NCBI GenBank assembly: GCA_009930445.1
Contig: RZYD01000004.1
Location: forward strand, 1 to 34,361
Direction of reading: 5' to 3'
From: Bacteroidia bacterium
GTDB taxonomy: Bacteria > Bacteroidota > Bacteroidia > Bacteroidales > BM520
DNA: 34,361 nucleotides
Below, one piece after another: positions 1 through 34,361 of the stretch. Made by a program: the position numbers and the translations under genes. The notes below the pieces were generated by a model. That model was not told the origin of the DNA and ran no database searches. It saw nothing but the letters and a program-made list of their open reading frames with translations. How positions within the stretch are numbered: the stretch's first letter is position 1; each line of letters begins with the position of its first letter.

Positions 1-99
1 GATAAGTGTTTGAAGAGCTAGTATTTATTTTATAATAGTTAGAACCATTACTGTCTGGGCTTTTAAATACAAAACAGTATTTATTACCAACAGTCAACG
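1..99. repeat. Terminal direct repeat, left copy (circular closure)
   Basis: These 99 bases are identical to the last 99 bases of the window. The repeat lies inside an open reading frame that continues in frame across the join, which is what an assembler overlap on a circular or circularly permuted genome looks like. A true 99-bp terminal redundancy cannot be excluded from sequence alone. Confidence 0.95.
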
Positions 100-538
100 A
101 GACCCTGTTAAAATTAACTTTAAAAGGACTACCACCATTAAAAACTTCATCTTTATCTAGCTCAACACTATCTAAAACACTACCCGTTGGATTTTCACTA
201 GCGTCGGCATTATATACTTCTATTGTCAAATCGCTTGGAGTTCCTGTCCAAATAGTTATATAAAAAGTAGCACTCATTAAATATCCTTTAGTAGCCTTAA
301 AAGATTGTGAAACAATATCATCATCACGAATATCCCACTGAGCTCCTCCACTATTAGTTTGCGTTATTTCTTCCGTTTCTCCTGTTGGTTTCAAAATATC
401 ACCCCATTTTGTCAACGGACTAACACTTGTTCCACCAGTTAATAAGCCTGTTAATGATATACTATCAGGGTCAATACTACTTGCGTTCTCGGCCGGCCAT
501 TTATCCCCTGCGTTAAATTTATATTTTGATAAACTCAT
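1..538 (-). CDS. Tail fibre / receptor-binding protein, N-terminal part (continues at the right end)
   Basis: Translated by hand from the ATG at 538 (MSLSKYKFNAGDKW...), the frame stays open to base 1 and continues at the right end of the window (33190-34262). The joined gene is 1,611 nt, 536 aa. This part carries the virion-attachment end and the first of two jelly-roll-like repeats (around ...SQSFKATKGYLMSATFYI..., 'YCFVFKSPDSNGSNYYK'), a pattern common in phage fibres and carbohydrate-binding modules. It follows the tail-tip genes directly, the usual place for a fibre. An A/G-rich stretch (AAAGGAAA) lies about 12 nt before the start. The gene lacks the GATCGY motif found elsewhere and contains GGCCGGCC at 491-498, unlike the rest of the genome. 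Function is inferred from repeats, position and the C-terminus. Confidence 0.8.
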   Translation of the reverse strand, partial: MSLSKYKFNAGDKWPAENASSIDPDSISLTGLLTGGTSVSPLTKWGDILKPTGETEEITQTNSGGAQWDIRDDDIVSQSFKATKGYLMSATFYITIWTGTPSDLTIEVYNADASENPTGSVLDSVELDKDEVFNGGSPFKVNFNRVSLTVGNKYCFVFKSPDSNGSNYYKINTSSSNTY

Positions 539-8856: not shown

Positions 8857-9486
8857 TTAAAATTTATACCCCTTAGCACTTTTACCAATCCCCTCGTGCC
8901 AAGTTTCTAAGTCTTTGAGATATACACTTAAATATCCGTTCTTTCTCCAAAATCCACCCCTCTCAACATCTTTCTCAATCATCTGCTCAGCCATTAACTC
9001 AAAAGCCTCTCTAGGTATCACTGTGAACATTCCTCCTGTGTGAGTAGTTATCTCAACATTAAAAGAACCCAATTCTCTCCTATTATCAACTATCTGAGGC
9101 TTATAGGAGGGCAATATATTCAAATCTAAAGGGGCTGTGATGTATTTATCTCCCACTTCGTTATAAAACCTCATAATCTCTGCTAAAATCCCTCTAGTCT
9201 TAATTTGGCAGTCATCATCAAACTTCATTACATAGTCAGGAATAAACCCGTGTTTAGTCCCCTCTCTATATCCACGAACCCAAGCCCTAACTATTCCCTC
9301 GTTTTCAATATTACTAATTACATTATAGCCTTTTTTCTTAAGCCATTCAACAGTTCCGTCATTACTTCCGTTATCTACAACAATATGCTCATAAGGATAA
9401 CCAGCTTTTCTTTTTAATTCTCCTAAAAATCTCCTAGTAGTTTCTAAGCGACCTCTAGTAATTGTGATAACTAAAACTTTTTTCAT
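8857..9486 (-). CDS. Glycosyltransferase family 2 (GT-A fold)
   Basis: 209 aa. The N-terminus 'KKVLVITITRGRLETTRRF' and the motif 'HIVVDNGSNDGTVEWLKKKG' are classic GT2 nucleotide-sugar binding features; 'MKFDDDC' provides the metal-binding DxD. 'ETWHEGIGKSAKGYKF' ends the protein. It overlaps the methyltransferase gene by 4 bp (ATGA), so the two are translationally coupled. The gene lies inside the head module between capsid and connector genes, which points to late expression and possibly to sugar decoration of the virion; host cell-surface change is the alternative. The acceptor and donor cannot be told from sequence. Confidence 0.85.
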   Translation of the reverse strand: MKKVLVITITRGRLETTRRFLGELKRKAGYPYEHIVVDNGSNDGTVEWLKKKGYNVISNIENEGIVRAWVRGYREGTKHGFIPDYVMKFDDDCQIKTRGILAEIMRFYNEVGDKYITAPLDLNILPSYKPQIVDNRRELGSFNVEITTHTGGMFTVIPREAFELMAEQMIEKDVERGGFWRKNGYLSVYLKDLETWHEGIGKSAKGYKF

Positions 9487-10043
9487 AATAATTTTATAGT
9501 AATTAACATTTTTGAATAATCATCAGACCTAGCTACATATCGGTCAACGACCTTAAAATATAAATCTAATCTTTCTAAAAATAACTCCTCGTAGATTGAG
9601 GTTTTATGTTTTTCAGCAGGATTACCACCACACTCATCTTGTTCAACCACACCGAGAGGCACAACAATCATCATATACTTGAATATCCCCTTTAACCTAA
9701 CCAATAAATCAAACATCTCATTTTCCTCTAAATGCTCTAACACATCCCCAAAGATTGCGAGATCGTAGGTTTTCTTACTATCCCACCATTCCCTTATATC
9801 ACACTTCTCAACCACATTATAAATCCCCTCATACTTCAACCACTCAACAGACTTATCAAAAACTTCTAATCCTTTTAAAAAGATATTAGGTCCAAGAACT
9901 GAACGAGCTATCACTCCATACTTACCAAGACCAGCACCAAAATCAACGATAGTAGCAGGTTGTATTCTTTTTAAAATAACCTTAGCGACTTCATCTGTCA
10001 TCCCCCAACTTCCTCCTGTATTTTCAGGTTTTATCTTTTCCAT
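9483..10043 (-). CDS. SAM-dependent class I methyltransferase
   Basis: 186 aa. Motif I 'TIVDFGAGLGKYGVIAR' binds S-adenosylmethionine; the acidic end of strand 2 (LEVFDKS), 'YDLAIFGDVLEHLEENEMFD' (motif IV region of small-molecule and sugar methyltransferases) and 'MMIVVPLG' follow in the right order. No DNA-methyltransferase catalytic motif (DPPY/PC) is visible, so a sugar or small-molecule acceptor is more likely than DNA. It overlaps glycosyltransferase genes on both sides (13 bp upstream, 4 bp downstream), so the three form one coupled unit, perhaps to make and cap an O-methylated glycan. Confidence 0.85.
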   Translation of the reverse strand: MEKIKPENTGGSWGMTDEVAKVILKRIQPATIVDFGAGLGKYGVIARSVLGPNIFLKGLEVFDKSVEWLKYEGIYNVVEKCDIREWWDSKKTYDLAIFGDVLEHLEENEMFDLLVRLKGIFKYMMIVVPLGVVEQDECGGNPAEKHKTSIYEELFLERLDLYFKVVDRYVARSDDYSKMLITIKLL

Positions 10044-11515
10044 ATTTTCATAAAATCAACTTTATTAAAATCAATCACTTCACCCTTTTTCATCATTCTA
10101 TTATATAGGTCAGGATTTTCTAAAAGCATTTTCTTGTCATACTTTAGCTGTCTTTCCTTTTTAGCCTTTACATCCTCATCTCTCACATAACCAAAATGCT
10201 TTAAGATATATTCAGTTTCTTTCCTATTCTGATAAGCATATTTAGGTCCTGAACCACAGTGTAGATTTCTGTCATAGAACTTTTGTGATTGTTCGGGGCA
10301 ATATCTAAATAACCTGATATTCTTTTGCTGAGAAAACACCCCGTCAATTCTTACTTTATCCTCAGACCCCCAATAATGAGCCAAGACAAAATCATAGGCA
10401 ATACCACTATTGAGCAAACTGATAATAGCAGGTCTATTTAATTCCTCATCAAAGAACTCATCTGCGTCAATCGGGATAATTCCAAGAGGATTTTTAGAGA
10501 TAGCATATTGAGTAGCCCTCTCTCTTAATAAGTTCTCAGCCTTACCAAACAATTTGAATTTATGCTCGTAGATCGTGATAGGGTAATATTCTTTTAACCT
10601 TTTTAACTCTTTTATAGTTTTAGTATCTGAGTTATCACAGACAACAACTATCTCGTCAATTAGTTTCCTTTTAAATAAGTCAATAATTACTCTACTCATA
10701 TATCTGTCAGCCTCATTACCGACAATCATACTCCCGATTATTCTTTCCTTGTTTTTCCACTTTAAATTAAAATAAGCAAGACCATTATAATAATTAGAAC
10801 GCCAAAACTCAGACATAGTATTTACACTATCCTTGCCCTCGTGTTTGGCTTTAGCCTTGCTTACACAAATTTTATATCCTCGCCTTTTAACATTCTCACA
10901 TAAATCATTATCCTCAAACATAAAGAAAAATGTTTCATCAAATCCTCCAATCATCTCAAATAACTCTCTCCTAATACACATCACAGAGCCATTAAGACCC
11001 CAAGAGGTTTCAGAACAAGCAGTCCCGACCATTCCGACCTCACTATCACTAAAAGGCTTTAACAGATTATAGAAAAAACCACTCTCACTTAACTCAACAT
11101 CATCATTTAGGAATAAGATAAACTCTCCTAGTCCCTCATTTAACTTAGCCCCGTCATTACAGGCTTTAGCAAAACCCCCAACCTCAGGGCTAAACTTCCT
11201 CTCAATAACTTCAAGAGTAATTTTTTTCTGTTTTAAATATTTTTTAAGAACACCTAAACTAGCGATTGATTTCTTGTCCTTAGTAGGCACAACAACATCA
11301 ATAACTCCTCTTTGATATTTCTTGCCGAGAATATTACGCCCAGTCAATTTATCTCTCTCAACCTCATCAGGCATATAAACATCCTCCAGCAACTCAGTCT
11401 TTTTAACAATCTTATCTTTTTTTAATTGTTTATATTCCTCAGGGCTTACAGCTCTGACATCCCCTGGCACATAATTATCTTGACCTTTTAGATATTCCAC
11501 TAATATCTTGGTCAT
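10031..11515 (-). CDS. Two-domain glycosyltransferase with an N-terminal capsid-associated-like domain
   Basis: 494 aa in three parts. Residues 1-45 ('KILVEYLKGQDNYVPGDVRA', then a short helix) resemble the complete 59-aa head-module protein encoded just upstream. Residues about 70-260 form a GT2 domain ('GVIDVVVPTKDKKSIASLGV', 'EFILFLNDDVELSESGFFYN', 'GGFDETFFFMFEDNDLCENV'), and residues about 260-490 form a second GT2-like domain with 'LGIIPIDADEFFDEELNRPA' (DxD-like). The gene sits directly after the small head gene and before the methyltransferase. The fusion suggests the enzyme is brought to the capsid, or at least descends from such a protein. Sugar donor and acceptor are unknown. Confidence 0.82.
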   Translation of the reverse strand: MTKILVEYLKGQDNYVPGDVRAVSPEEYKQLKKDKIVKKTELLEDVYMPDEVERDKLTGRNILGKKYQRGVIDVVVPTKDKKSIASLGVLKKYLKQKKITLEVIERKFSPEVGGFAKACNDGAKLNEGLGEFILFLNDDVELSESGFFYNLLKPFSDSEVGMVGTACSETSWGLNGSVMCIRRELFEMIGGFDETFFFMFEDNDLCENVKRRGYKICVSKAKAKHEGKDSVNTMSEFWRSNYYNGLAYFNLKWKNKERIIGSMIVGNEADRYMSRVIIDLFKRKLIDEIVVVCDNSDTKTIKELKRLKEYYPITIYEHKFKLFGKAENLLRERATQYAISKNPLGIIPIDADEFFDEELNRPAIISLLNSGIAYDFVLAHYWGSEDKVRIDGVFSQQKNIRLFRYCPEQSQKFYDRNLHCGSGPKYAYQNRKETEYILKHFGYVRDEDVKAKKERQLKYDKKMLLENPDLYNRMMKKGEVIDFNKVDFMKIWKR

Positions 11516-15938: not shown

Positions 15939-17321
15939 TTATTCAAGAGTAATTATATCTAAAACTCTTTTAGGCTTAACCAAACTATACATCCTCATCA
16001 TAACCATATCAGCATAGTCAGGAGATCGTCCAATATTCTCTTTAATTTTATCCTTACCGACTAAATAAATCTTTCCGTCTTTATCTACATCTCTCTGCTT
16101 AATCTGTCCCAATTCCTCAATATACTCATCTTTGGCTTTACTATCAAAAGCCTCCTCATCCACACCTAACTCACCAGCCTCCATAACCTCAGCTAATTTA
16201 AAATAGCACTGAGTTTTAAGGTTTCCATAATTCTCATAGAACTCACCTCTCTTTTTCCTTAACTCATCTTGCTTAGTGAGAACAGGTGACGAGCCATTTA
16301 TAAATCCAATACACCCCTTAATATTATCAACTACTCCACCACCAACTCCGTCCTCATCTAAAATGATATGACTGGTCCTGACTTTATACTTCTGAGCCAA
16401 CTTCTTGATATACTTGGCACTCTCTAAAGTGCTACTCCTTATCTCATAGGGAATAATAAACACCTTGACTAATTGTAAGCCCTCCCATAGACCGACAGGC
16501 ATATTATCTCTACCCTTACGAGATACATCACCAGTAAGCCACCTATCCCTCTTGTCATTAACCTTTTGCTTAAATTGGTCCTGAATAACATCAAGGTCAA
16601 ACAGACAAGCAGGGTCATCATCATACTCCCAATTACCATTTAACAATCTCTCCCGAGTATTTTTATCTTTAATCGCCTTTAACTGAGCAATATAATGTTT
16701 TGAGATGAACGGGTTGTCTTTAGCCAAAGCTCTAATAAAGGCTTTCCCTCTCTCCAATATCCCGTCTTTAAAAGGCTTATAAAAATAAGTATAGACCCAA
16801 CCCTTAGAGGGATTACAGGTCCCCAATAACTTAGGGATTAAACCATACTCATCTAATTTAAAACGAATACGAGATTTTATCACTTCCCAAGCCTTGAAAG
16901 TAATCTGATTAACCTCATCAATAAAAGCGCCAGTCAATTCCAAAGAACCTAACTCATCATAATTCGGGTCACTAGGCTGATGAGCCAAATCAGCTAACAA
17001 CACCTCACTCTTATTGATAAACTTAATTAGTCCGTCCTGAGCATTATAAGTAAAATGAACTCCCTGCTTTAACCCCCACTTATGACAGACCTCAAAAAAA
17101 GTCTTTAGGGTAGTTTCCTTTAACCTCTTTAATTTTTTACGACCTATCAGCCAACGAGTTCCTTTATAGGTGATAGCCATTTTAATAATCCAAGCACAAC
17201 CTAAAAAAGACTTAGCCCCACCTGCCCCACCACCAAACACAATCTCAGTGGTCACATCATCAGCAAGATAAGCCCAAGCCTCTTTTTGTTTTTCTGTTTG
17301 TTCCCATTTAATCTTTGCCAT
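15939..17321 (-). CDS. terL: Terminase large subunit (packaging ATPase-nuclease)
   Basis: 460 aa. ATPase part: 'EIVFGGGAGGAKSFLGCAWI' (Walker A), 'GRKKLKRLKETTLKTFF' (adenine/arginine region), 'LELTGAFIDEVNQITFKAWE' (Walker B plus catalytic Glu), 'LLGTCNPSKGWVYTYFYKP' (coupling motif). Nuclease part of RNase H type: 'RWLTGDVSRKGRDNMPVGLW', 'HIILDEDGVGGGVVDN' and 'GRSPDYADMVMMRMY' supply the three acidic residues. Length is normal for the family. It overlaps the small subunit gene by 14 bp. It cuts and pumps DNA into the prohead; headful or cos packaging cannot be told here, although circular closure of the contig would fit either. Confidence 0.96.
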   Translation of the reverse strand: MAKIKWEQTEKQKEAWAYLADDVTTEIVFGGGAGGAKSFLGCAWIIKMAITYKGTRWLIGRKKLKRLKETTLKTFFEVCHKWGLKQGVHFTYNAQDGLIKFINKSEVLLADLAHQPSDPNYDELGSLELTGAFIDEVNQITFKAWEVIKSRIRFKLDEYGLIPKLLGTCNPSKGWVYTYFYKPFKDGILERGKAFIRALAKDNPFISKHYIAQLKAIKDKNTRERLLNGNWEYDDDPACLFDLDVIQDQFKQKVNDKRDRWLTGDVSRKGRDNMPVGLWEGLQLVKVFIIPYEIRSSTLESAKYIKKLAQKYKVRTSHIILDEDGVGGGVVDNIKGCIGFINGSSPVLTKQDELRKKRGEFYENYGNLKTQCYFKLAEVMEAGELGVDEEAFDSKAKDEYIEELGQIKQRDVDKDGKIYLVGKDKIKENIGRSPDYADMVMMRMYSLVKPKRVLDIITLE

Positions 17322-17847
17322 TTTCGCTTTTCTTAGTAGTTATAATAAACTCAAAAGGCTCTAAATCCTCATCCTGACCTAACCCAACCTTTTGGCGATA
17401 CTTTTTCATTTTCCTGCCAGCATAAAAACGAACCATAGAACCGTCACCTTTTATAATCCCCTGTTTAATCTTATCATCAACTATTGTATCAAAACTATCA
17501 TCAATTTCATCAACGGCTTTTTTAAATTCCTCATCCTCCTTATACCAATTATAAAAAGTGACATTTGAAATCTTTACTTTAGCACAGGCATTAGTCACAA
17601 TCCCAAAACTATCTTTAAGAGCATCCAAAAACTTAGCCTTATTTTTAGCAGTCTTTTCCTTTTCCTTACTCCTATCTCTCCCTAATTTATCCTTAGGCTT
17701 AGGGGTTGTTAAATCTGTTAAATCTGTCTTTTTCTTTTTACTCCCTTTTTTAGCAACACTTTTCTTAGCCGAACTCTTTTTCGGTTTTTTTTTGCTTGAT
17801 ATTTCTATACTAGGCAGACTATTTTTTTGTTCTTTTTTTCTTGGCAT
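17308..17847 (-). CDS. terS: Terminase small subunit
   Basis: 179 aa. A Lys/Ser-rich N-terminal 70 residues ('KKKPKKSSAKKSVAKKGSKK') precedes a helix-turn-helix ('IVTNACAKVKISNVTFYNWY', then KEDEEFKKAVDEID) typical of small terminases, followed by 'IKQGIIKGDGSMVRFYAGRK' and a short C-terminal tail that would contact the large subunit. It directly precedes the large subunit gene and overlaps it. It should recognise the packaging start site, which is often in or near this gene. The basic tail is longer than usual and may add unspecific DNA binding. Confidence 0.88.
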   Translation of the reverse strand: MPRKKEQKNSLPSIEISSKKKPKKSSAKKSVAKKGSKKKKTDLTDLTTPKPKDKLGRDRSKEKEKTAKNKAKFLDALKDSFGIVTNACAKVKISNVTFYNWYKEDEEFKKAVDEIDDSFDTIVDDKIKQGIIKGDGSMVRFYAGRKMKKYRQKVGLGQDEDLEPFEFIITTKKSENGKD

Positions 17848-18780: not shown

Positions 18781-19518
18781 TTAACTTAATTTTAAAATGT
18801 TCTTAAGTATTTCATCCTCACCGAACTGGTCTTTAAGAATATTAGCATTAGGAATTTGGCAGTGTCCTCCAATCTTTCCTTTAGGAGGGTAAAGAGTAGG
18901 TCTAATAACCTCAGGCTTTCCTAACTCTCTATATCCTTTATTGTAGCTAGTATTGAAATCAGTAAGAACCACATCAAAGTTAGCGCCGATTTGCTCACAT
19001 AACTTATCTACATACTCAGTGAACGCAATACAGTGAGCATAATAGGTAGTAGATACTAATTTCCCTAACTCAGTATTCTTAGAACCTTTGACAACTTTAG
19101 CGTCTAATCCAAGATCGTCTTTAAAATGGAATAGAACTTTTAGACCTAAATTATCATCATCAGCCCCAATATATTTAACAAAGGTTTTAACTCCCTCATA
19201 TAAATTAGGATGAACCCCACGAATAGGAGAGTGAACTACATTCCCGAAAGCTAAAAATAATTGAAAAGTAACGCTTACTTTAACCGTGCTGTGAATAACC
19301 ACAAACTTTGGTTTATATTTATTTATGTTCTCAACTACAACCTCATTAAACTTTTCATTATAAGGGATACAGATATGTAGATATTCCATTCCCTCTCTAA
19401 AATTATTTATCCCTTTAGATAAATCATTCTCCAAGATAAAGAAGTCCTTAGGAGAGTTTATATAGACTTCTTTGATAGCAGTCCCGACTTCGCCAAGACC
19501 TAAAATTCCAATAATCAT
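18781..19518 (-). CDS. UDP-glucose/GDP-mannose dehydrogenase-like protein
   Basis: 245 aa. The N-terminal Rossmann motif 'IIGILGLGEVGTAIKEVY' binds NAD(P); 'VVIHSTVKVSV' resembles the S-T segment of the dehydrogenase family, 'KNTELGKLVSTTYYAHCIAF' corresponds to the central helix with conserved Glu/Lys/Asn region, and 'IGGHCQIPNANIL' resembles the GGxC catalytic-Cys motif. The family is normally about 430 aa; the C-terminal UDP-binding domain is missing, so the enzyme is a short phage form and substrate binding may differ. It lies near a glycosyltransferase gene and probably makes or alters an activated sugar. Confidence 0.75.
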   Translation of the reverse strand: MIIGILGLGEVGTAIKEVYINSPKDFFILENDLSKGINNFREGMEYLHICIPYNEKFNEVVVENINKYKPKFVVIHSTVKVSVTFQLFLAFGNVVHSPIRGVHPNLYEGVKTFVKYIGADDDNLGLKVLFHFKDDLGLDAKVVKGSKNTELGKLVSTTYYAHCIAFTEYVDKLCEQIGANFDVVLTDFNTSYNKGYRELGKPEVIRPTLYPPKGKIGGHCQIPNANILKDQFGEDEILKNILKLS

Positions 19519-19529
19519 ATATTTTTAAT

Positions 19530-19742
19530 TTAATTAACAGATATAAATTTATTATGCTTTTTTAAGAAATCATCAACTGGCTTGTCAAAATTCTTTTGGT
19601 CCAAATCACCTAATATCTCTCTTGCTCTACTCAACCGACAATAAAACCCACACTCACATTTATAGTTTTCATTAAATCTCCTCTTTATCTCATTCCCACA
19701 CATAGGGCATTTATCATCCCGTAAGTTTTCCCAATTTTTCAT
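19530..19742 (-). CDS. Small zinc-ribbon protein
   Basis: 70 aa. 'CPMCGNEI' and 'YKCECGFYC' give a C4-type zinc ribbon (CxxC plus CxC) in the first 40 residues, followed by a helical region ('SRAREILGDLDQKNFDK'). It overlaps the glycosyltransferase upstream by 4 bp, so the two are coupled. Function unknown; a small nucleic-acid- or protein-binding adaptor is a reasonable guess. Confidence 0.7.
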   Translation of the reverse strand: MKNWENLRDDKCPMCGNEIKRRFNENYKCECGFYCRLSRAREILGDLDQKNFDKPVDDFLKKHNKFISVN

Positions 19743-20479
19743 ATTCCATTTATAGGTATTCTCACAATAGGGTTTATGCTTAGATTACCCCCCTGAATTT
19801 TCCTTTTAATCTCAACAACATTATGCCCCCACTTTTTTTGAAATAGGATAGCTTGTTCCTCCTCTTTTTTCATAGTCCGATAACTAGCACAACCTCCTTT
19901 TTTCTTTATATGAGCAGATACATAATGATATTTATTAAATCTCAAAACCTTTCTGAATTTCCTGAGGGCTTGAATAGAATAATCATAGTCCTCCTTAAGA
20001 CCTAATCTCTCATCAAACCTTATATCCTCGTCCTTGATTATTCCCATACAAGGTCCGAGAATAACTGAACTAAAACTAAAGGGCGAATACTCACGATAAA
20101 ATTTCTTATCGCTTTGTAAATTAACGCCCCAAAGTTTAGTCCCTAATTCTTTTGCCATTCTAAAATTATTCTCAAATAAATCATAGACCTCCTGCTCAGT
20201 CATCATAAACATTTCCAAATTCTCGTAATAACCAAATTGTCTAATATCATCATCCAACATCACCAACTCATTCCCCTTACTATTATCAAGAATAAAATTT
20301 CTAATTACTGCCATACCCTTACCTGCTAGATCGTCAGGAATAGCGACTATTTTATTGTCATTATATTTTTTATACTCCTCTACCTCAAACTGATGACAAT
20401 AAATAACTGCTCTACTAAATTTTTTAGCAGTCAGACAATCATTTGCTCTTTTATAACTTGGTATAGCAATCTCAAACAT
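19739..20479 (-). CDS. Glycosyltransferase, TET-associated (TAGT)-like
   Basis: 246 aa. It starts 'FEIAIPSYKRANDCLTAKKF' and continues 'VIRNFILDNSKGNELVMLDD' with the metal-binding DDD, then 'GLKEDYDYSIQALRKF'. The IPS-KR start, the RN-I segment before a DDD and the E-D-Y-D segment are features I associate with the TET/JBP-associated glycosyltransferases that add sugars to hydroxymethylated cytosine in phages, and more broadly with GT-A enzymes. No TET/JBP or hydroxymethylase gene is seen in this genome, so a DNA acceptor is not proven. Neighbours are a zinc ribbon and a sugar dehydrogenase. Early/middle position differs from the late head-module glycosyltransferases. Confidence 0.65.
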   Translation of the reverse strand: MFEIAIPSYKRANDCLTAKKFSRAVIYCHQFEVEEYKKYNDNKIVAIPDDLAGKGMAVIRNFILDNSKGNELVMLDDDIRQFGYYENLEMFMMTEQEVYDLFENNFRMAKELGTKLWGVNLQSDKKFYREYSPFSFSSVILGPCMGIIKDEDIRFDERLGLKEDYDYSIQALRKFRKVLRFNKYHYVSAHIKKKGGCASYRTMKKEEEQAILFQKKWGHNVVEIKRKIQGGNLSINPIVRIPINGI

Positions 20480-20480
20480 A

Positions 20481-20669
20481 TTAACCCTTAATTACTAAAT
20501 TACTGCCACATTTAGGGCAGGTGATAACCCTACCAGTAGCCATATAAATTAAATACAGACAACCAATAGGCAATAGGAATAAAAGCAATAAGAACAAAAC
20601 GAAGTAAGAACCCCTATTCCTAATCTTTGGTTTCCCGTAGTATTTACAAATTTGACATCTAATAGTCAT
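20481..20669 (-). CDS. Membrane protein with split zinc-ribbon (CxxC-TM-CxxC)
   Basis: 62 aa. A CQIC pair near the N-terminus and a CPKC pair near the C-terminus flank one hydrophobic segment 'FVLFLLLLFLLPIGCLYLIY'. This CxxC-membrane-CPxCG layout resembles LITAF-type or zinc-ribbon membrane proteins, in which the two halves fold into one metal site at the membrane face. Role in the phage unknown. The start lies 1 bp after the previous gene's end in the operon. Confidence 0.65.
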   Translation of the reverse strand: MTIRCQICKYYGKPKIRNRGSYFVLFLLLLFLLPIGCLYLIYMATGRVITCPKCGSNLVIKG

Positions 20670-20670
20670 A

Positions 20671-21105
20671 TTATTTTAGATTAACCACAAAAGCGTCAAC
20701 TGAGTGGCGTATTTTAATAATCTCAGGCACTACATCCTCAGGAATATCTAAGGTCATAGTGTCTTTGCTAAAGTCAACTTGCTCAACACTCACATTAAAG
20801 TAAGGTATCTCTAAACCTTTCATTTCCTCTAATTCTCCCTTAACCTGAGCAATATTGTCCTTTAGAGAACGAATAGAAGCCTTATAGTCGTCAAACATAT
20901 CAGGCTTAGCCTCAACATTTTTAATTTTTCCCTCTAACTCTTTGACCTGATCGTTGAAGTAATCTAGGTCAACAGAGATTTTGACTTTATAATTTGATAA
21001 AGCCTCAGTTAGACCGAAAGGGCTTTTAATCTTTAAAGTCCACTGCCTAGCATTTTCCTTGACTGATAAAGCAAGGATTTTAAATTTCATTTTTTGCTCT
21101 GCCAT
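20671..21105 (-). CDS. Unknown protein with a central coiled coil
   Basis: 144 aa. Beta-type ends ('FKILALSVKENARQWTLKIK' and 'FNVSVEQVDFSKDTMTLDIP') enclose a charged helical coiled-coil segment about residues 50-95 ('FNDQVKELEGKIKNVEAKPD'). No family recognised. Spacing of 11 bp to the ParB-like gene upstream; the ATG is preceded by TTTTAATTTT with no Shine-Dalgarno. Confidence 0.6.
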   Translation of the reverse strand: MAEQKMKFKILALSVKENARQWTLKIKSPFGLTEALSNYKVKISVDLDYFNDQVKELEGKIKNVEAKPDMFDDYKASIRSLKDNIAQVKGELEEMKGLEIPYFNVSVEQVDFSKDTMTLDIPEDVVPEIIKIRHSVDAFVVNLK

Positions 21106-21116
21106 AAAATTAAAAC

Positions 21117-21722
21117 TTATTTAATTAAATCAAGGAGTTTCTGACCGTCTAATACACGACCAACCCCTTTTTGTTTATAGTCTTTATTACTACTCTTAGA
21201 TAAAACACTTTTCAATTTAAAATAATCCTCAATAGCCATCCAATCAACTGAATTGTTAAAAGCAAATACTATATAATTATTTTCCTCTAATAACTCAGCA
21301 CTAAACTCCTCCTCCTTAACCAAGCTGACATCATCAGCGAATACCTTACTCAACTCACTCTCCATAAAACCAACCTCTCTCAATAACTTCTCATCCAGTC
21401 CAGCCAATAACTTAGTATCAAACTCACCCTTATTTTTATTCAATCTTAAATTTAACTCTTTCTCATCCTTAATCTGTAAATTCACACCAACACAAGGCAC
21501 TTCTTTCATTCCTAACTCCTGAGCAATCATTAACCTTTGATGACCACCGATAACAATATTTTTCCTCTTAGGATTGATATTGATTACAATAGGCTCAACG
21601 AAATCAAATTTTTTAATTGACTTTTTTAATTCCATTTTTTCCTTTTTCCCAATCTTTCGGGGATTGTAGGTAGCAGGTTTTAATTCACTAACCTTTTTTT
21701 GTATTATTTTTAGATTGCTCAT
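21117..21722 (-). CDS. ParB-like protein (ParB N-terminal / sulfiredoxin-type domain)
   Basis: 201 aa. 'KKVSELKPATYNPRKIGKKE' then 'IVININPKRKNIVIGGHQRL', 'MIAQELGMKEVPCVGVNL' and 'ELNLRLNKNKGEFD' give the ParB N-terminal fold with the GGHQR motif, of the kind that often precedes a DNA methyltransferase in phages. Here the methyltransferase half is absent; instead a C-terminal part ('ENNYIVFAFNNSVDWMAIED', 'GVGRVLDGQKLLDLIK') follows. Such stand-alone phage ParB proteins may nick DNA or regulate a modification locus. It overlaps the preceding gene by 35 bp. Confidence 0.8.
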   Translation of the reverse strand: MSNLKIIQKKVSELKPATYNPRKIGKKEKMELKKSIKKFDFVEPIVININPKRKNIVIGGHQRLMIAQELGMKEVPCVGVNLQIKDEKELNLRLNKNKGEFDTKLLAGLDEKLLREVGFMESELSKVFADDVSLVKEEEFSAELLEENNYIVFAFNNSVDWMAIEDYFKLKSVLSKSSNKDYKQKGVGRVLDGQKLLDLIK

Positions 21723-32552: not shown

Positions 32553-32843
32553 TTATTTATTAGCATTAGTTAAGACAAATTGTAGAAGTAATAAAAATCC
32601 TGAGGCTATATAAACAAATCTTTCTAATTTTCTCATTCTGTTTTCGTGGTCTTTGATTTTAGTATCAACAGCAATCTCTTGTATTTTTATTTTTTCTCCA
32701 ACCTCCTCTTTATCACATTTATTAACTTCAACTTTAGATAGTCTAGTTTTAAAGTCATTATTATCCCGTATTAAATCAGATAGACGAGTATCTATCCTAA
32801 TAAGCAGATCGTGGTCACTTTGATATTTACTTTCCTCCGACAT
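32553..32843 (-). CDS. XhlA-like coiled-coil membrane protein of the lysis cassette
   Basis: 96 aa. A charged coiled coil ('DTRLSDLIRDNNDFKTRLSK' to 'IKDHENRMRKLERF') is followed by one C-terminal transmembrane segment 'VYIASGFLLLLQFVLTNANK'. This layout is typical of haemolysin XhlA proteins that accompany holins. It lies between the holin-like gene and the peptidase and should anchor at the inner face of the membrane to time lysis. Confidence 0.8.
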   Translation of the reverse strand: MSEESKYQSDHDLLIRIDTRLSDLIRDNNDFKTRLSKVEVNKCDKEEVGEKIKIQEIAVDTKIKDHENRMRKLERFVYIASGFLLLLQFVLTNANK

Positions 32844-33189: not shown

Positions 33190-34361
33190 CTAACTACTTG
33201 TTATTGCTTCCCAAGATGTTCCGTTATAAAAATTTAATTTATTAGTGGTTGAGTTAAATATTATCTGTCCTGCCCTTACTCCTAAAAGAGCGTCTCTTTG
33301 CGCTGTAGTTAAACTTTGAGCAACAAATACTTCTTTAGGAATTTTAGTGTTTCCGTCTAATCTTAATATATTAAAATCATCATCTGTCTTAGGAGTTTGA
33401 GTTGCGTTTGTTCCTAAATCTAAATAATAACCACTAGCGCCGTCAGAAGTATTTCCACTAATATCAGTCCCACTTGAAGGACTTGTCATTTTCTCTATAT
33501 TCTTATCAGATTTAATAATAAATTTATTAGTGCTATATTCAACTGTTTCATTTCCACTTGTTAATTCTCTAATTTGTTCTTGTAAAGCTGAGGCAATTTC
33601 ATCAAAAGTCGGGACTTTTTCTCCTATTATTTTAAAATATAAATCTATGCTTACATTTGTCCAAGGATTACTACTAACTTTTTCTATAACATTACCGTTA
33701 GAATAAATATCACTTGTTGAACATTGAGCAGATACATATTGACTTGATGTAGTTTGAGGATAAGCCGGAGGTGTTAAAACTATCGCATATTTTGTATTGG
33801 AATTTAACAAAATAGATGAACTCAAAGTTAATTCTATATCTTGATAACTTGTTGTTAATTCTGTCGCAATGTTTAATGTGGCAGTAGCTAAAGCACTACC
33901 AGTTGGAAAACCACCAGAAGTCGCATATATTCCTACCGTTAATGTTCCATAAGCACTTGAATACTTTTTGAGCCTTAAAACTATTTTTGATATTAAATTT
34001 TTACTTACAGTTTCAAAAGTTTGTCCCTGTTGTATTTCATCATAAAAAGCTCTCTCATTTCCTGACCCACCTACAAAAAGGTCCGTTCCCTCACTTTCGT
34101 ATGGTAAACTTAATATATTATCATCATAGTCAGTATTATCTATATTTATAGAGTATTTTAAAAAGTTAACTGATGTTGCCATATTAACTTTCATATAAAT
34201 ATCGCTTGATACAGAATTCCAACTAGAGCCACCGTTTAAACTATATTTTAATGTTCCGTCTGGATAAGTGTTTGAAGAGCTAGTATTTATTTTATAATAG
34301 TTAGAACCATTACTGTCTGGGCTTTTAAATACAAAACAGTATTTATTACCAACAGTCAACG
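33190..34361 (-). CDS. Tail fibre / receptor-binding protein, C-terminal part (starts at the left end)
   Basis: This is the downstream two thirds of the 536-aa fibre gene that starts at 538 and crosses the circular join; the ORF-track start (a TTG at 34359) is an artefact of the window edge. It contains a second jelly-roll-like repeat ('GQTFETVSKNLISKIVLRLK' through 'DLYFKIIGEK') parallel to the one in the N-terminal part, which suggests a duplicated glycan-binding module. The C-terminal end ('LTTAQRDALLGVRAGQIIFN' and 'LNFYNGTSWEAITSS') is a typical phage fibre/appendage ending. It is the last gene of the tail block, 137 bp before the lysis cassette. No terminator hairpin is evident after its stop, so read-through into the lysis genes is possible. 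Confidence 0.8.
   Translation of the reverse strand, partial: LTVGNKYCFVFKSPDSNGSNYYKINTSSSNTYPDGTLKYSLNGGSSWNSVSSDIYMKVNMATSVNFLKYSINIDNTDYDDNILSLPYESEGTDLFVGGSGNERAFYDEIQQGQTFETVSKNLISKIVLRLKKYSSAYGTLTVGIYATSGGFPTGSALATATLNIATELTTSYQDIELTLSSSILLNSNTKYAIVLTPPAYPQTTSSQYVSAQCSTSDIYSNGNVIEKVSSNPWTNVSIDLYFKIIGEKVPTFDEIASALQEQIRELTSGNETVEYSTNKFIIKSDKNIEKMTSPSSGTDISGNTSDGASGYYLDLGTNATQTPKTDDDFNILRLDGNTKIPKEVFVAQSLTTAQRDALLGVRAGQIIFNSTTNKLNFYNGTSWEAITSS
34263..34361. repeat. Terminal direct repeat, right copy (circular closure)
   Basis: Exact copy of the first 99 bases. Removing one copy gives a closed molecule of 34,262 bp. The size of a k-mer-like overlap (99) suggests an assembly artefact of closure rather than a biological end. 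Confidence 0.95.

Follow-up and report, generated by a model that had tools for sequence, protein, structure and literature searches.

Within a phage genome recovered from a metagenome-assembled genome (MAG), the minus-strand genes at 18781-21722 combine a glycosyltransferase, a ParB-like protein, a short relative of nucleotide-sugar dehydrogenases and small zinc-ribbon proteins, which raises the question of whether such a locus modifies the viral DNA or the surface of the host cell. The window (the whole analysed stretch of 34,361 nucleotides) is contig C382 of a 3.47-Mb MAG, and the end of the contig copies its start as a 99-bp direct terminal repeat; therefore it represents a complete phage genome of about 34,262 bp, circular or circularly permuted, and not a fragment. 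The gene order on the minus strand is tail, head, portal, terminase, the studied region, and then recombination and single-strand-binding genes, and the module lies directly upstream of the TerS-TerL pair (Table 1). With a probability of roughly 0.7 the module is a two-protein DNA-modification system of the ParB-like protein and the TAGT-family glycosyltransferase within a ParB-Tls locus, which would transfer sugar to phage DNA at restricted sites; the phage thus probably decorates its viral DNA with sugar. All ORFs named in the original prediction were found on the minus strand with their families confirmed; however, they had been listed as consecutive, and here two small genes separate ParB and TAGT, which are adjacent in most relatives.

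Table 1. Features of the studied module and of the adjoining terminase genes.
Feature	Coordinates	Strand	Evidence
ParB-like protein, 201 aa	21117..21722	-	ParB_N 1.4e-9; Foldseek to CTP/CDP-bound ParB and Noc
ParB-like protein, domains	residues ~1-130 and ~140-201		ParB/Srx NTP-binding N-domain (~1-130); TAGT-coupled C-terminal domain, CTD (~140-201), ExxNYIVF.FNN..DW...KGVGRVLDG
144-aa protein with coiled-coil middle	20671..21105	-	60% identical copy at the same place in L001
Single-span membrane protein with LITAF-like zinc ribbon, 62 aa	20481..20669	-	PF10601 2.6e-5, 24.7 bits vs cut-off 23.8
TAGT-family GT-A glycosyltransferase, 246 aa, DDD and LKEDYD motifs	19739..20479	-	PF20691 1.4e-18; PHROG 842 1.6e-26
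Zinc-ribbon protein, 70 aa	19530..19742	-	CPMCG...CECG in sequence
Short nucleotide-sugar-dehydrogenase relative, 245 aa	18781..19518	-	PF00984 1.2e-5; TIGR03026 part match; Foldseek
Small terminase-like protein (TerS), downstream of module	17308..17847	-	precedes TerL; weak HTH_Tnp_1_2; conserved in relatives
Terminase large subunit (TerL)	15939..17321	-	Terminase_3 4.5e-12

The glycosyltransferase matched the Pfam TAGT family PF20691 with 68 bits (gathering cut-off 27.5) over residues 2-196 and the whole length of the profile (1-205), while PHROG 842, to which it is also assigned, is the T6-type "beta-glucosyl-HMC-alpha-glucosyltransferase". The TAGT identity, proposed earlier from the IPSYKR, RN and DDD features, is therefore well founded, and these features are invariant or nearly so across the family; DDD is present in 104 and LK(E/D)DYD in 102 of the 106 family members, both being found in the window. 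Chance resemblance to TAGT is ruled out by the profile scores together with the conserved context. Searches of TAGT and of the dehydrogenase against PDB sequences by phmmer gave nothing useful. In comparison with the nearest relative (L001) TAGT and ParB are 85% and 82% identical, respectively, and the neighbouring proteins mostly 40-70%, so this pair is among the better-conserved non-structural proteins. The TAGT of phage T6 glucosylates a DNA-borne sugar, while solitary TAGTs, which occur without T4-type alpha-GT or beta-GT, are known from 288 of the 753 phage genomes that encode such glycosyltransferases, and their function is stated as unknown (PMC13216743).

The ParB-like protein gave no HTH_ParB match, unlike the ordinary ParB of L213, and so the combination of N-domain and HTH that characterizes a partition ParB is missing from it. 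In the AlphaFold model the N-domain is confident and the CTD only moderately so (pLDDT about 54-77), and in Foldseek the model resembles CTP- and CDP-bound ParB and Noc with E-values down to 6e-8. The CTD, a stretch of about 60 residues described by no Pfam or PHROG model, is common to nearly all ParB proteins paired with TAGT, with the family pattern E..NYVV..FDN..DW...G.GRV..G.

The association of the two proteins was followed in a census of the 80 nearest matches of each of two scans (TAGT and CTD), with some contigs common to both. The TAGT profile scan found 466 related stretches in viral contigs, of which the best 80 were kept, and a further 8 in bacterial genomes. Among these best matches, ParB lay upstream on the same strand at 73 of the 74 TAGT loci with enough upstream sequence, and 72 of these ParBs had the CTD; the sole exception has just 731 bases of upstream sequence. 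The paired loci form 55 clusters at 95% identity, 40 at 70% and 10 at 50%, and the two genes usually touch or overlap, most commonly by a 4-base stop/start overlap. The 144-aa gene, whose product has no Pfam or PHROG match above the cut-offs, separates them only in close relatives of the window, and in L001-L005 the zinc-ribbon gene at 19530..19742 is also retained beside TAGT. In the opposite direction, scanning viral contigs with the CTD only revealed 216 loci, and TAGT was found no more than two genes downstream in all of the best 80 of 216 (80/80). The CTD query was built from TAGT-adjacent ParBs, whereas the scan itself made no selection for TAGT, so the reciprocal test is a fair one for the 80 nearest matches. 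Among these matches TAGT and the CTD-bearing ParB are thus obligately paired in both directions, and the same arrangement is present in isolates, namely in the Streptococcus phage Javan291 and in 56 records of Microbacterium phages.

The genomic position of the pair is also constant. The order ParB, TAGT, TerS, TerL seen in the window is matched in nearly all relatives, and the next large downstream gene was a terminase in nearly all of the 41 loci scanned (Terminase_6N in 19, Terminase_3 in 17 and GpA in 4). Such a constant terminase neighbourhood could be explained if the substrate of the pair were a packaging or head protein, or a nucleotide, instead of DNA, and ParB/Srx-fold proteins can indeed be NTP-using enzymes, SerK for example; but terminases of several families follow the module, a diversity that hardly points to one protein as the substrate, and the ParB-N domain also occurs in fusions with DNA methyltransferases (below), so this explanation is improbable.

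When phages with a window-related terminase were collected irrespective of TAGT, four of them (L214, L231, L243 and L273) were found to carry, directly upstream of TerS-TerL, a fusion of ParB with an N6_N4_Mtase domain (PF01555, 9e-15 to 4e-34). The ParB part of these fusions matches the ParB model used here over positions 9-17 through 140-145 with E-values of 1e-37 to 1e-47, and the CTD is absent from all four. In L215 a relic joins the N-terminus of ParB to the C-terminus of TAGT. Together with the obligate pairing, the fusions in the same slot indicate that TAGT has apparently taken the place of a DNA methyltransferase as the modifier that ParB directs, and in the simplest reading one ParB-N unit would serve either a fused methyltransferase or, via the CTD, a separate TAGT.

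In its gene order this arrangement corresponds to the ParB-Tls locus of Iyer et al. 2013, which, in the description given in PMC6536676, holds DNA-modifying genes between a ParB-like gene (separate or fused) and the terminase large subunit; compared with that description, the modifier in the window is a predicted glycosyltransferase alone, and its ParB has a TAGT-specific CTD. ParB was proposed there to direct DNA-modifying enzymes to specific sites during packaging (PMC6536676). ParB-methylase fusions are also known, one of them with nicking activity (PMC5512222), and examples such as Bce_0392 of Bacillus cereus place the same ParB-N family beside a DNA-modifying catalytic unit; the phage fusions occupy the same slot upstream of the terminase, but they transfer methyl groups to exocyclic amines, have no CTD and are fused rather than paired. 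ParBc proteins further accompany carboxymethylcytosine genes (PMC12783734). In the literature examined the CTD, the reciprocal pairing and the swap were not found described, while Iyer et al. 2013 may already list TAGT-only ParB-Tls loci. The TAGT subfamily of the window can thereby be given a constant partner, a domain diagnostic of the pair and a place in the genome that ParB-methyltransferases also occupy, so that cultured phages offer a direct test of what phage ParB-like proteins contribute to DNA modification.

The original prediction had left both DNA and surface modification open, and it is the DNA side that is strongly supported by the obligate pairing and the ParB-methyltransferase swap, while the surface side is not. 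For the latter, the glycosyltransferase, the dehydrogenase and the membrane zinc ribbon would change the host surface, for instance in superinfection exclusion, with ParB as a partition or nuclease protein that has no part in it. Surface polysaccharide pathways often include nucleotide-sugar dehydrogenases and GT2-like enzymes, and close to the locus there are a membrane protein and a lipoprotein-like ORF. Against this, TAGT is coupled to the CTD-ParB in both directions, the membrane protein and the dehydrogenase are outside the conserved core, and the same slot in relatives holds a DNA methyltransferase; surface alteration is accordingly highly improbable, and from the gene context we infer that the target is DNA and not the cell surface.

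In the preferred reading, DNA modification by the ParB-TAGT pair, the ParB-like protein, with its predicted NTP-binding ParB/Srx fold and without the usual helix-turn-helix, would engage phage DNA, and its CTD may recruit or activate TAGT, presumably by physical contact. TAGT would then take a sugar from a nucleotide sugar of the host, probably UDP-glucose, and attach it to a base at a limited set of sites in the phage DNA, at about the time of replication or packaging, and the benefit would presumably be protection from host nucleases.

As for the acceptor, ParB-like proteins and TAGT enzymes are known companions of phage cytosine hypermodification loci with TET/JBP and methyltransferase genes. 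Neither TET/JBP nor DNA methyltransferase had been seen in the window, which holds by Pfam for nearly every gene, all but a few short ORFs having been scanned. TET/JBP had no match in 46 related records, in the MAG of the window or in 396 genomes of the phylum, but no positive control gave a signal, so this absence is weaker than it appears. The thymidylate-synthase family, which includes known hydroxymethylases and 5-hydroxy-dCMP synthase (PMC13390438) and was searched as the source of dCMP hydroxymethylase, was found in none of 48 related records including two complete isolate genomes, with controls positive in 9 of 14 genomes, and in none of the scanned proteins of the window. A C5-methyltransferase gene was present in 4 of the 48 records, and in L049, which is outside this set, such a gene is located between two TAGTs. 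Many of the viral contigs are fragments, while the window, Javan291 and Jefe are complete. The lack of TET/JBP, considered puzzling before, is the rule in this TAGT subfamily and no local oddity (46 records, no control signal for TET/JBP). The window-type records share with the PF20691 family (the T6 enzyme and TET-associated glycosyltransferases) the sequence family, the GT-A motifs and the presumed UDP-sugar donor; they differ in the lack of detected TET/JBP or hydroxymethylase, in the nearly constant CTD-ParB and in the sometimes tandem TAGT. The dioxygenase that defines the TET-TAGT cytosine hypermodification system (again with no control signal) and the dCMP hydroxymethylase that defines T4-type hydroxymethylcytosine glucosylation were both not found here.

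Since no known source of hydroxylated bases was detected, the candidates for the acceptor are a host-made or cryptic handle and a plain base. The first is a sub-case of DNA modification that differs on the acceptor, where the pyrimidine receives its 5-hydroxymethyl or 5-hydroxy group from host enzymes or an unrecognised phage protein, and TAGT does no more than glycosylate this handle. It is held at somewhat less than even odds: in every relative that has been characterised the substrate is cytosine that is hydroxylated or carries a sugar already (the T6 TAGT, PMC13216743; arabinosyl-hydroxycytosine phages, PMC13390438) and several small genes of the window belong to no identified family, but the searches above stand against it, with TET/JBP unmatched in the 46 records and the MAG (the controls being silent), the thymidylate-synthase family at 0/48 and C5 methyltransferase at only 4/48, and the hosts of the pair are so diverse that any host enzyme serving all of them would need to be widespread. 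The second and rather unlikely version is a site-directed DNA glycosyltransferase that would place sugar straight onto an unmodified base with no hydroxylated handle, for example onto an exocyclic amine, the kind of group modified by the N6/N4 methyltransferases in the same slot; the attached sugar would then be oxidised by the dehydrogenase without nucleotide-binding domain. Sugar transfer without a hydroxylated base, if true, would amount to a novel type of DNA chemistry.

The dehydrogenase was taken before as a part of the modification locus; the gene is real and lies beside TAGT, but it is an accessory outside the conserved core. It matches the central domain PF00984 with 25.8 bits (cut-off 25.4) and consists of a Rossmann and a central domain with the GGHC catalytic-cysteine motif, without the UDP-binding domain. 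Accordingly, TIGR03026 gives 31.9 bits, below its threshold of 189.8, and is covered at positions 106-287 of 413 only, the UDP-binding part being absent; in the structural model the N-terminal half is a Rossmann fold with UDP-glucose dehydrogenases as top Foldseek matches, and the C-terminal half is unreliable. PF00984 was found in only three of 49 records (G001, G058 and Jefe), most TAGT phages having no dehydrogenase, and for this reason the enzyme was rejected as the core of the module and is regarded as a rare accessory. A tblastn search for it in phages gave no hit at 1e-5, although a profile does recognise the Jefe copy. This copy belongs to the Microbacterium cluster EC phages (Quhwah, Jefe; PMC7302621), in which ParB, a small gene, the glycosyltransferase and a short UDP-glucose dehydrogenase are arranged in this sequence, close to the end of the genome that connects to the terminase genes. 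The lineage is unrelated, with the glycosyltransferase 25% and the dehydrogenase 23-24% identical to those of the window, and this glycosyltransferase alone falls below the PF20691 threshold. The Microbacterium dehydrogenase matches TIGR03026 at 70-286 of 413 and, like that of the window, stops just past the catalytic cysteine without a UDP-binding domain; two distant phage lineages therefore have a short dehydrogenase beside TAGT. The probable role of the enzyme in this phage is to oxidise the C6 alcohol of the sugar to an acid, while the sugar is still on an unusual donor or possibly once it has been transferred to the DNA.

The composition of the genome bears on the extent of modification. 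It had been pointed out that GATC is retained only as RCGATC, and the pattern is even stronger than described: all 30 GATC sites (95 GATC expected) are RCGATC on the coding (minus) strand. The loss of GGCC was likewise borne out (2 observed, about 47 expected), and GGCC, TCGA, TGCA, GTAC, ACGT and CATG are nearly gone, with 0-2 of each against 31-57 expected. C-containing tetranucleotide palindromes are thus strongly avoided, yet a genome with all cytosines glycosylated would have little cause for this, so the doubt raised earlier about blanket hypermodification was justified; the avoidance argues against genome-wide protection of the phage DNA and favours modification at few sites, other functions being possible as well. 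The RCGATC motif as a target of ParB-TAGT fits the close relatives and is a lead only, since G008, with a TAGT 70% identical, has no RCGATC. It was rejected as a host-wide motif: ACGATC occurs 920 times in the 3.47-Mb MAG (about 0.27/kb, both strands together) and is unenriched there, unlike in the phage. A general oriented and evenly spaced motif was not found in other ParB-TAGT phages.

Finally, 16 loci carry two TAGT genes in tandem, in which the first copies make up a separate group with 28-29% identity to all others, and the second copies are ordinary. In T6 glucosylation proceeds in two steps (PMC13216743), and by analogy such tandem TAGTs may add successive sugars.

Throughout the window every GATC is read on the coding (minus) strand as RCGATC (30 of 30 sites, the first at 839 and the last at 32807), and over the same stretch RCGATC is more common than RCGATA, RCGATG or RCGATT. 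The sites are spaced at a mean of 1.1 kb with a coefficient of variation of 0.38, which is more regular than chance, and none of 2000 random placements matched their evenness. RCGATC has the appearance of a functional motif that is dispersed and oriented. The pattern is also present in three related phage records (G001, G003, and G005), while in a fourth, G002, RCGATC is found at 37 of 47 sites and without even spacing. It is absent from G008 (TAGT 70%) or in L213, a terminase relative without TAGT (TerL 64%).

Several tetranucleotides are extremely avoided across the window, TCGA and GTAC being absent, TGCA, ACGT, and CATG occurring once each, and GGCC twice, against 31–57 expected for each; the sets avoided by relatives differ in part. 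The direct terminal repeat of 99 bp indicates that the window is a complete genome, circular or permuted.

The GT2-like and Methyltransf_23 genes are possibly involved in head or tail glycosylation. At other ParB-TAGT loci additional genes are encountered. The class I methyltransferase (PF13847) that sits between ParB and TAGT at L037 and at nine more loci might methylate the attached sugar. GmrSD_N (DUF262) is a family of restriction enzymes targeting sugar-modified DNA, and one member is encoded at locus L089 of Roseibacillus ishigakijimensis.

Coordinates of the terminal repeat and of genes in the window and at related loci
Feature	Location	Strand	Remarks
Direct terminal repeat	window 1-99 = 34263-34361
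Two GT2-like glycosyltransferases flanking Methyltransf_23 gene	window 8857-11515	-	between major capsid gene and head-tail genes
Gene within this group	window 10031-11515		relatives' copies 62-72% identical
PF13847 methyltransferase, ~187 aa	L037 5454-6017		between ParB and TAGT
GmrSD_N (DUF262) protein	L089 7717-8766		TAGT on one side, terminase-like gene on the other

In Victivallaceae MAGs two ParB-TAGT pairs (L093 and L094) are located without an adjacent terminase, the latter near an enolase-like chromosomal gene.
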